Below, piece after piece: positions 45,537-47,889 of a DNA stretch of 64,000 bases (positions are counted from its first letter, which is position 1; the number at the start of each line of letters is the position of its first letter). The stretch is from NCBI RefSeq assembly GCF_001665685.1, contig NZ_LZTB01000010.1, positions 62,001 through 126,000 of the forward strand, in the 5' to 3' direction. This stretch comes from Mycobacterium sp. 852013-50091_SCH5140682 (GTDB lineage: Bacteria; Actinomycetota; Actinomycetes; Mycobacteriales; Mycobacteriaceae). The translations under genes and the position numbers were made by a program. The notes beneath the pieces are model-generated. The model was not told the origin of the DNA and ran no database searches. It saw nothing but the letters and a program-made list of their open reading frames with translations.

Positions 45537-45593
45537 CGAACGTGAGCTTGTGTGCGAAATACGGGCGAATCCTCGCGCACAAGCTCACGTTCG
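45537..45593. terminator. 20-bp palindrome downstream of sseC2
   Basis: CGAACGTGAGCTTGTGTGCG (45537-45556) pairs with 45574-45593 over 20 positions with one mismatch; the loop is 17 nt. It lies 12 bp after the sseC2 stop and separates that operon from the nitrobindin promoter. Confidence 0.75.
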
Positions 45594-45604: not shown

Positions 45605-45907
45605 CTAAGCGACCTTGACGTCGACCTCGTGGATCCCGGCACCGGTCGGGGCGACGCTGGCGTCACCGTTGCCGGCGGGCGACAGCGCGCGCAGGGTCCA
45701 GGTGCCCGGCGCCGCGAAGAAGCGGAAGTCGCCGGTCGCCGACGCCACCACCTCAGCGGTGAACTCGTCGGAGGAGTCGAGCAGGCGTACGAACGCCCCG
45801 CCGACTGCCTGGCCGGAGCCGTCGACCACGCGTCCCGTGATCACGGTTTCCTTCTCCAGGTCGACGCCGGCCGGCAACGTCTGTCCTTGCTTGGGTGCAG
45901 AGCACAT
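45605..45907 (-). CDS. sseC2: SseC-type DUF1416 protein
   Basis: 100 residues: MCSAPKQGQTLPAGVDLEKE, then VITGRVVDGSGQAVGGAFVRLLD and a beta-sandwich tail ending HEVDVKVA. It matches the small SseC protein encoded after thiosulfate sulfurtransferase genes in mycobacteria; role in sulfur metabolism is inferred from this linkage. ATG 45907 begins one base after the cysA2 stop, so it is co-translated. Confidence 0.9.
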   Translation of the reverse strand: MCSAPKQGQTLPAGVDLEKETVITGRVVDGSGQAVGGAFVRLLDSSDEFTAEVVASATGDFRFFAAPGTWTLRALSPAGNGDASVAPTGAGIHEVDVKVA

Positions 45908-45908
45908 A

Positions 45909-46745
45909 TCAACTTCCCAACTCGATCGGGGCGCCCACCAGGGAGCCGTATTCCGTCCAACTGCCGTCGTAGTTCTTCACGTTCTGGTGTCCCAGCAGTT
46001 CCTGCAGCACGAACCAGGTGTGCGACGAGCGCTCACCGATCCGGCAGTAGGCGATGGTTTCCTTCTCGCCGTCCAGGCCTGCCGCGGCGTACAGCGCAGC
46101 GAGTTCCTCGTCGGACTTGAAGGTGCCGTCCTCGTTGGCGGCCTTGCTCCACGGAACGTTGATGGCTCCGGGGATGTGTCCGGGCCGCTGGCTCTGCTCC
46201 TGCGGGAGGTGTGCGGGGGCCAGGATCTTGCCGGAGAATTCGTCGGGCGAACGCACGTCGACCAGGTTCTTGACGTTGATCGCGGCGATCACGTCGTCGC
46301 GGAAGGCGCGGATGCTGTGGTCCTGCGGCTTGGCCGAGTACGACGTCTCCGGGCGGCTGACCGCGTCCTTGACCAGCGGGCGGCCGTCGAGCTGCCAGCG
46401 CTTGCGGCCGCCGTCGAGCAGCTTGACGTCGGCGTGGCCGTACAGCTTGAAGTACCAGTAGGCGTAGGCCGCGAACCAGTTGTTGTTGCCGCCGTACAGA
46501 ACTACGGTGTCGTCATTGCTGATGCCCTTGTCGCTCAACAGCTTCGAGAACTGCTGCTGGTCGACGAAGTCACGCTTGACGGCGTCCTGCAGGTCGTCTT
46601 TCCAGTCCAGCTTGACGGCGCCGGGGATGTGGCCCTCGTCGTCATAAGCGCTGGTGTTCTCGTCGACCTCGACGAATACCACGCCAGGAGTTTCGAGATT
46701 GTTCCCGGCCCATTCGGTGGAGACCAGGACGTCGGAGCGTGCCAT
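45909..46745 (-). CDS. cysA2: Thiosulfate sulfurtransferase (tandem rhodanese)
   Basis: 278 residues, two rhodanese domains. The active C-terminal domain has Cys234 in AYCRIGERSS; the N-terminal domain is inactive, with Gly-Asn in VLYGGNNNW at the matching place. It transfers sulfane sulfur from thiosulfate. ATG 46745 has AGGAT upstream; the longer frame overlaps the DUF4395 gene and was not used. It is the second gene of the leader-controlled sulfur operon. Confidence 0.93.
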   Translation of the reverse strand: MARSDVLVSTEWAGNNLETPGVVFVEVDENTSAYDDEGHIPGAVKLDWKDDLQDAVKRDFVDQQQFSKLLSDKGISNDDTVVLYGGNNNWFAAYAYWYFKLYGHADVKLLDGGRKRWQLDGRPLVKDAVSRPETSYSAKPQDHSIRAFRDDVIAAINVKNLVDVRSPDEFSGKILAPAHLPQEQSQRPGHIPGAINVPWSKAANEDGTFKSDEELAALYAAAGLDGEKETIAYCRIGERSSHTWFVLQELLGHQNVKNYDGSWTEYGSLVGAPIELGS

Positions 46746-46782: not shown

Positions 46783-47250
46783 TTAGGCGGGGCTTGGCGT
46801 GCGACGGAAACGGGCCACCAGCGGATAGATCTGGCAGCCGAGGCAGATGCCGAACGCGGCATTGAGGAACGCTGCCACCAAGGCCAGCGCGGTGGCGGCC
46901 AAGCCGAGCGCGGGGACGCCGAGCGCGAAGCCGACGGTACCGACGACGGCGAACACAAAGCCGACCAGTTGAGCGAATTTCAGCGGAGCAACCGGTTCAC
47001 GTTCGGTGACGGGGCCAAGGCGTGGCGCCACGAGCGTGGCGAACACCCGGCCGTACGGATGCCTGCGGGGACCGCCGACGGCACCGATGGCGAACACCAC
47101 CGCCTGCAGGCCGAGCAGTATGGCCGCCGCGACGCTGCTGACCCCGGAGATCAGCAGGGTGAGGATCAGCGCACCGGTGGTGACCCAGGCGGCGAATCGG
47201 GGGCCGCGTACGTCGACCTGACCGGTGGTCTCGAGGTGAGGACCTGACAT
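46783..47250 (-). CDS. DUF4395 membrane protein, first gene of the sulfur operon
   Basis: 155 residues, four hydrophobic segments. The DUF4395 hallmark NAAFGICLGCQIYPLVARF (residues about 128-146) with a CxxC pair is present near the C terminus. Association with cysA2/sseC suggests a role in handling sulfane sulfur at the membrane, an inference. ATG 47250 is preceded by AGGAG (47260-47264, minus strand), and bases overlapping this site are complementary to the polycysteine codons of the leader ORF. Confidence 0.85.
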   Translation of the reverse strand: MSGPHLETTGQVDVRGPRFAAWVTTGALILTLLISGVSSVAAAILLGLQAVVFAIGAVGGPRRHPYGRVFATLVAPRLGPVTEREPVAPLKFAQLVGFVFAVVGTVGFALGVPALGLAATALALVAAFLNAAFGICLGCQIYPLVARFRRTPSPA

Positions 47251-47341
47251 GTGAACAAGCTCCTGTTGTTGTTGGAAGGCTGGAGGTGAGCAGGCCGGAG
47301 GGCAAGACTCCGAGCGGGCACGTCAAGACGCGCGGAAGCGC
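47251..47341 (-). promoter_or_regulatory. Attenuator-like leader between polycysteine uORF and DUF4395
   Basis: In the transcript, CAACAACAACAG next to the ribosome-binding site (47263-47274) is an exact 12-base complement of CUGUUGUUGUUG in the Cys-codon run (within 47349-47363). Pairing would hide AGGAG (47260-47264). A ribosome paused on the Cys codons would prevent it. This supports cysteine-responsive translational control. Confidence 0.65.
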
Positions 47342-47434
47342 TCAGCAGCAACAACAACAACAGCAGCAGCCCGCGACGCGGCACAGATCGACTGCGCGGC
47401 GCTTGGTGAGCACAAGCTCAATGCGGGCGGACAC
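47342..47434 (-). CDS. Polycysteine leader peptide (cysteine attenuator)
   Basis: 30 codons from GTG 47434: MSARIELVLTKRRAVDLCRV then AG and eight consecutive Cys codons, then TGA. TAAGCT (47442-47447, minus strand) lies seven bases upstream, so translation is leaderless. A shorter start at GTG 47413 is in frame. Polycysteine leaders before sulfur genes have been described in M. smegmatis as sensors of cysteine supply. The run of Cys codons also reads as poly-Leu in another frame, which I regard as a shadow. Confidence 0.9.
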   Translation of the reverse strand: MSARIELVLTKRRAVDLCRVAGCCCCCCCC

Positions 47435-47441
47435 GAGCGAC

Positions 47442-47447
47442 AGCTTA
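47442..47447 (-). promoter_or_regulatory. -10 box (TAAGCT) of the sulfur operon leader
   Basis: Minus strand TAAGCT seven bases before GTG 47434, located just after the thiX stop (47464). Confidence 0.5.
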
Positions 47448-47463
47448 CCCAATAACCGCCGAC

Positions 47464-47889
47464 TCAGGCCAACAGCGGTTCGAGCGCTGTGCGCAGGTCA
47501 GCAGCCTTGGGTACCCCGCTGGTGCGGTACCGCTGATGCCCTTCGGCGTCGAAGATGAACGTCGTCGGCAGGGACAAAACCGAAAGACGCCGCGCCGCCG
47601 CCGGATTCGCGTCCATGTCGATCTCCACGTGCGCCACCGCGGGCAGCTCGGCGCACACCTGGTCGACCACGCGGCGCACCCCGGCGCACGGTCCGCACCA
47701 CTCCGCGCTGAAATGCAGGATGGTCGGCCCGGTGGTGGACAGCCCGAGGTCTGAGGTGTCCAGCTGCGCGGCGGCCTCGTCGGCGGCCCGCAGCATTCCG
47801 GCGCGCAGCGTCACCAGCCTGCCGATCACGTACGCCACGCCCAGCGCGGCGATCAGTACCGCGACCACGGTGATCATGGAAGCGCTCAT
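47464..47889 (-). CDS. thiX: Membrane-anchored thioredoxin-like protein ThiX
   Basis: 141 residues. An N-terminal helix (ITVVAVLIAALGVAYVIG, residues 6-23) anchors a thioredoxin domain with SAEWCGPC (Cys65, Cys68) and the cis-Pro loop SLPTTFIF. The orientation of the domain relative to the membrane is not certain. ATG 47889 overlaps the lmeA stop by 4 nt. It corresponds to Rv0816c. Confidence 0.9.
   Translation of the reverse strand: MSASMITVVAVLIAALGVAYVIGRLVTLRAGMLRAADEAAAQLDTSDLGLSTTGPTILHFSAEWCGPCAGVRRVVDQVCAELPAVAHVEIDMDANPAAARRLSVLSLPTTFIFDAEGHQRYRTSGVPKAADLRTALEPLLA

Follow-up and report, generated by a model that had tools for sequence, protein, structure and literature searches.

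Cysteine codons of an Ms5788A-family leader are predicted to pair with the Shine-Dalgarno sequence of the DUF4395-cysA2-sseC2 operon in a Mycobacterium species

The stretch of Mycobacterium DNA analyzed here (64,000 nucleotides, hereafter the window) carries on its minus strand a cysteine leader of the Ms5788A family at the head of a DUF4395-cysA2-sseC2 operon. This leader probably controls translation by attenuation, with its own Cys codons covering the Shine-Dalgarno sequence of the DUF4395 gene. When cysteine is plentiful, ribosomes would clear the leader quickly, allowing GCUGCUGUUGUUGUUG (47367-47352) to pair with CAACAACAACAGGAGC (47274-47259), and the clamp so formed is predicted to hide four of the five bases of the AGGAG. 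In a shortage of Cys-tRNA, a ribosome paused on these codons would sit over the 5' arm and, as modelled, free the start region. We infer that the operon responds to cysteine, and that control is exerted at translation and not at transcription. The element and its general mechanism are already known: it belongs to an attenuator family that has been named and studied, and it stands where members of that family usually do. What is added here is a longer helix, its modelled opening, the uneven spread of the Shine-Dalgarno-adjacent complement among relatives, and a comparison with leaders from other genera.

The leader starts with GTG at 47434 and runs along the minus strand for 30 sense codons to a TGA at 47344-47342 (VSARIELVLTKRRAVDLCRVAGCCCCCCCC, 47342-47434), encoding VSARIELVLTKRRAVDLCRVAG followed by eight Cys (TGC TGC TGT TGT TGT TGT TGC TGC, 47345-47368), base for base as an earlier sequence-only reading of this DNA had described it. 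In profile HMM comparisons, the peptide scored 50.5 bits against the NCBIfam model NF042933 ('Ms5788A family Cys-rich leader peptide', cut-off 45) and 38.5 bits against NF042934 ('putative leader peptide', cut-off 27); it is thus a member of NF042933 by the curated cut-off, and it also has the matching placement at the head of a DUF4395/cysA2 operon. A search against Rfam returned no family at its gathering score, the best match being mir-1307 at 47677-47758 (23.4 bits against a gathering score of 69). A -10-like box, TAAGCT (47442-47447, minus strand), lies 7 nt 5' of the GTG, where a leaderless start would have it, and transcription of the leader is, judging from the position of this box, probably leaderless.

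Behind the leader, on the same strand, lie the AGGAG Shine-Dalgarno sequence of the DUF4395 gene (47260-47264), the DUF4395 gene itself as the first gene of the operon (46783-47250, with its ATG at 47250; PF14340, E 3.8e-43), a gene for a cysA2-like sulfurtransferase (45909-46745; Rhodanese PF00581, E 1.6e-35), and a DUF1416 gene (45605-45907; PF07210, E 1.3e-43), sseC2-like after the name that the sequence-only reading gave it. These three matches bear out the operon that had been proposed from the sequence. The nearest named relative found for the DUF4395 protein is that of M. brisbanense (97% identity). A gene for a protein of the thioredoxin fold (47464-47889) precedes the leader. Directly behind the DUF1416 gene we noticed by eye an inverted repeat with 16-base arms (CGAACGTGAGCTTGTG, window 45537-45593), which is possibly the end of the operon.

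In the trp, his and leu leaders of enterobacteria, regulatory codons lie within the leader and the position of the ribosome decides between RNA folds. The present element shares both features with them; unlike these attenuators, it has no hairpin with a U run, and its regulatory codons are themselves the predicted anti-Shine-Dalgarno strand. Leaders of the present kind were reportedly tested in M. smegmatis by Canestrari et al. 2020, whose reported conclusion is that ribosomes stalled in the Cys tract prevent the folding that would mask the ribosome site downstream. That work is cited for attenuation-type regulation in three later papers (PMC9031893, PMC9094748, PMC13236596). The sequence-only reading had stated that cysteine attenuators are known in M. 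smegmatis, which is correct, and the known locus is this very one (NF042933; PMC4633059): Shell et al. 2015 (PMC4633059) describe this leader upstream of cysA2 in both M. tuberculosis and M. smegmatis, propose attenuation, and report ribosome occupancy of the leader in the second species. Both the M. smegmatis leader (Ms5788A) and the corresponding one of M. tuberculosis agree with ours in HMM family, in position at the start of the DUF4395/cysA2 operon, in the leaderless-type start and in having the Cys codons at the C-terminal end; the species is the only difference noted. A literature search, with subscription papers mostly outside its coverage, yielded no paper that we recognized as naming the base pairs described below.

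The Cys codons contain CTGTTGTTGTTG (47363-47352), an exact 12-base complement of CAACAACAACAG (47274-47263), and the latter overlaps the AGGAG (47264-47260) by an A and a G; both the exactness of the match and the overlap had been stated from the sequence and proved correct. When the region from stop to start was dinucleotide-shuffled with the Cys run held fixed, an exact complement of 12 bases was reached in 3 of 20,000 shuffles. Folding of the RNA from 47434 to 47230 gave -87.6 kcal/mol, shuffles averaging -70.15 (z -4.23, with none of 200 as good), and the MFE structure from this in silico folding, which had been proposed as a check, holds the named helix.

The predicted clamp is longer than the sequence-only reading had it. 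Its arms (47352-47367 and 47259-47274, minus strand, the second overlapping the Shine-Dalgarno sequence) form 15 pairs around a single G.G mismatch (47364/47262), all 15 with pair probabilities of at least 0.97, and beyond the mismatch lie GCU:AGC pairs joining 47367-47365 with 47259-47261. Because the helix continues past the mismatch, four AGGAG bases and not two would be paired. The regulatory Cys codons overlap the strand that can pair with the Shine-Dalgarno sequence in the predicted helix, as an attenuator of this type calls for. In the window, an alternative register one codon along pairs equally well (15 of 15 positions in both registers), since both arms are repeats. The MFE fold further contains a predicted inner helix on the minus strand between the last Cys codons with the stop (GCUG-C-UGAGCG, 47339-47349) and UGCUCA-CCUC-CAGC (47279-47292).

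The effect of a stalled ribosome was modelled by forbidding pairing within a 31-nt footprint and computing the cost of opening the start region. This cost was 14.1 kcal/mol for the free RNA; it was 12.2, 12.2 and 14.3 kcal/mol with the A site on codons 5, 10 and 18, and 5.5, 5.5, 7.2 and 5.5 kcal/mol with the A site on Cys codons 23, 25, 27 and 30. In the model, then, the position of the ribosome on the Cys run matters for the opening of the start region. With the ribosome at the stop codon the cost was 5.4 kcal/mol, and since a terminating ribosome opens the site equally in the model, only dwell time could discriminate. As for the earlier claim that a stalled ribosome would free the site, the modelled start region does become cheaper to open (14.1 to 5.5-7.2 kcal/mol), its wider extent going from 0.37 to 0.65-0.68 unpaired under stall, but the AGGAG itself mostly re-pairs locally (0.20 unpaired in the free RNA against 0.24-0.29 when stalled).

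We then have the question of how widely the complement is found, for which we assembled 191 sequences comprising the window, 80 named loci (the best 80 of 218 confirmed), 30 loci from further genomes and 80 further stretches. The latter two sets came from a genome survey with a DUF4395 match in 281 of 297 genomes, of whose places only part was sampled. There is some redundancy among the 191 sequences, and the window's own locus is represented in them twice (its second copy is L088); removing redundancy left 158 unique regions, and clustering gave 73 clusters below 0.90 similarity. A leader is present in 188 of the 191 sequences, and 187 of these 188 have a TANNNT -10-like box 5-9 nt ahead of the leader start. 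No leader was found upstream of DUF4395 in two sequences (L047 and L084), and a third (L086), which begins at a contig end, is uninformative. In both L047 and L084, an AGGAG was seen closely behind the apparent end of the upstream thioredoxin-like gene.

The motif CA[AG]CAG stands directly at the GGAG in 132 of the 188 leaders (a partly redundant count), in 111 of the 158 unique regions and in 53 of the 73 cluster representatives; the Shine-Dalgarno assignment of one sequence (L054) may be wrong. A complement of at least 7 nt occurs in 102 of the 158 unique sequences, lying 7-9 nt upstream of the GGAG in 22 of those 102, and the spacer from the leader stop to the GGAG measures 54-97 nt across the sample. 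With a ribosome modelled as stalled on the Cys codons, the median drop in opening cost was 2.6 kcal/mol among the 53 adjacent representatives (at least 2 in 35 of 53, with no gain in some and a lowest value of -2.1), against a median of -0.5 kcal/mol in the 20 non-adjacent ones (a drop of at least 2 in 2 of 20). By a stricter measure, a mean gain in unpaired Shine-Dalgarno bases of at least 0.3, 4 of the 53 adjacent and 1 of the 20 non-adjacent representatives respond. Pairing is, as far as these predictions go, a good account for the window species and many relatives, and it is not supported as a general rule: the sequence-only reading had named species with the leader ORF and no conserved complement next to the ribosome site as evidence that would count against it, and such cases do occur in part, as 20 of 73 representatives retain the leader with the adjacent complement displaced or missing, and leaders from other genera, described next, have short complements at most. 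The mechanism it put forward is likely for the window species; it is neither general among mycobacteria nor proven by covariation.

The leader is found well outside the genus. Of 397 genomes sampled from the order (own genus included), 363 have a match to NF042933 at E <= 0.001, with 113 over the cut-off; none of 14 control genomes has one. We examined 20 leaders from other genera, hand-picked for spread. The neighboring ORF, its translation judged by eye, is DUF4395-like in 9 of the 20 and cysA2-like in 10, and for one leader (L251) the downstream ORF or start chosen looks wrong. In these 20 leaders the longest Cys run is at most 3, and when the last codons were compared with the 45 nt in front of the chosen start, with G.U pairs excluded, the longest exact complement in each leader measured 4-6 nt. 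The RRAVDLCR core is conserved in mycobacterial and other-genus leaders alike, and a hairpin is possible in both, at a mean of -11.9 kcal/mol (the 27-nt RRAVDLC piece in 83 unique mycobacterial 45-mers) and -11.8 kcal/mol, respectively. As core peptide and hairpin are both conserved, selection on the peptide and selection on the RNA are indistinguishable here. We offer tentatively, at somewhat below even chances, a history in which the leader is older than the clamp: an order-wide RRAVDLCR leader before DUF4395/cysA2 would have had few Cys and no complement to the Shine-Dalgarno sequence; a trinucleotide Cys run would then have grown in mycobacteria and become the anti-Shine-Dalgarno strand, so that a single slippery repeat is both sensor and lock; and one mycobacterial group would later have shifted the complement off the Shine-Dalgarno sequence and now read the stall by another route.

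A different reading, which we regard as unlikely, keeps the Cys run as the sensor and takes the adjacent complement to be incidental or secondary, the read-out being another structure in the spacer; UGU would slow decoding when Cys-tRNA is short, and CAA repeats would keep the ribosome site A-rich and open. Codon usage fits this reading, as the TGT share of Cys codons is 67% in adjacent and 63% in non-adjacent representatives, against 20% (27/132) in the 36 long ORFs of the window, and two leaders (L267 and L270) have TGT runs without a complement. We accordingly rejected TGT enrichment as proof of pairing, it being nearly as common without an adjacent complement, and a TGT share of 63% even there means that the preference needs another cause too, perhaps slower decoding. 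Set against synonymous recodings, the native Cys codons lie at a median percentile of 0.43 in the 158 unique sequences, 0.39 in the 53 adjacent and 0.48 in the 20 non-adjacent representatives, and at 0.06 in the window; the choice of Cys codons does not appear clearly tuned to pairing, and any effect seems weak overall. Nor does covariation point to the pairing. In the consensus register, none of the 13 pair columns rose above shuffles on the 53 representatives, 9 of the 13 varying too little to inform; on the representatives, when three registers with 15 pairs each were tried, every pair was equalled by at least 174 of 2000 shuffles and no register showed covariation; and the lengths of the TGT and CAA runs are uncorrelated (Spearman -0.05). 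With the 111 unique sequences one of the 13 columns did exceed shuffles (matched in 3 of 2000; Fisher p 0.002), but the same column has p 0.18 on representatives. The covariation between Cys codons and ribosome site that the sequence-only reading had proposed to look for does not, then, reach significance when near-duplicates are left out. A leader binds its own site better than a swapped one, the mean advantage being 0.7 kcal/mol (0 of 5000 permutations), in a comparison that ignores relatedness. What speaks for the clamp and against an incidental complement is the low free energy of a fold that contains the helix, the rarity of a 12-base match among shuffles, and the CA[AG]CAG at the Shine-Dalgarno sequence in most representatives, the modelled opening responding there and hardly elsewhere.

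Control at transcription is less probable again. Here, fast translation would expose the C-rich spacer to Rho, the transcript would end before DUF4395, and slow translation would alter the outcome. Rho was suggested for mycobacterial cys operons with Cys leaders by Seliverstov et al. 2005 (PMC1262725), who call the suggestion weak; the leaders described there resemble ours in being short ORFs with Cys runs near the stop and no terminator, and differ in belonging to a cys operon that may not be this one, in the appeal to Rho, and in having no conserved hairpin reported. The 66 nt behind our leader stop consist of 29 C, 17 G, 16 T and 4 A, and a terminator scan found no intrinsic terminator in 47200-47500, which is compatible with Rho and unlike a classical transcription attenuator. 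A ribosome stalled upstream would, however, leave the spacer naked and so help Rho, unless DUF4395 were then translated, and work in M. smegmatis reportedly concluded that control lies at the ribosome site. We consider it very improbable that the RRAVDLCR core is a nascent-peptide arrest signal to which the Cys run merely adds. The core is retained in other-genus leaders with few Cys and its V codon varies freely (GTC, GTT, GTA, GTG), as such a signal would allow; but the core itself includes a Cys codon and its bases form a conserved hairpin (GCGCAG/CUGUGC, 47381-47397 of the minus strand in the MFE fold), and with several codons nearly fixed as well (CTG in 82/83, TGC in 82/83 and Ala as GCA in 68/83 of the unique mycobacterial 45-mers), selection at the RNA level explains the core equally well.

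The same genome contains other Cys runs. Among seven matches to the run, four are the window leader, and the remaining three (L005, L006 and L007) look by eye like chance runs and were set aside. A search allowing at most one mismatch gave 59 places, 29 of which had no locus, and 23 new loci (L118-L140) were examined; of these, the window leader (L118) and L119 alone had a -10-like box placed 5-9 nt ahead of a start, with L127 and L140 unoriented. L119 (C11:100541-100555), MAHDGSMRSGMARAFVVQCCCC, is a further candidate for a leaderless Cys leader; its -10-like box is at 6 nt, and CAACAA was not found ahead of its next likely start. Another leader-like ORF, also rich in Cys at its end, lies at L272 1473-1573 (C11:84599-84655), before what appears by eye to be nirA (sulfite reductase), and scores 20.7 bits against NF042934, below the cut-off of 27. 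The AGGAG at this locus was seen by eye to lie inside a local perfect GGCTCC/GGAGCC hairpin, so the Shine-Dalgarno sequence may be hidden there without Cys codons.

For the window species, a known cysteine attenuator is pinned to 15 predicted base pairs, each of which can be broken and restored. The picture drawn from this species need not fit every mycobacterium, as about a quarter of the representatives (20/73) keep the leader and lack the complement beside the Shine-Dalgarno sequence. With the leader kept across the order and the surroundings of the ribosome site differing, these loci form a natural set for studying how attenuators change their read-out.
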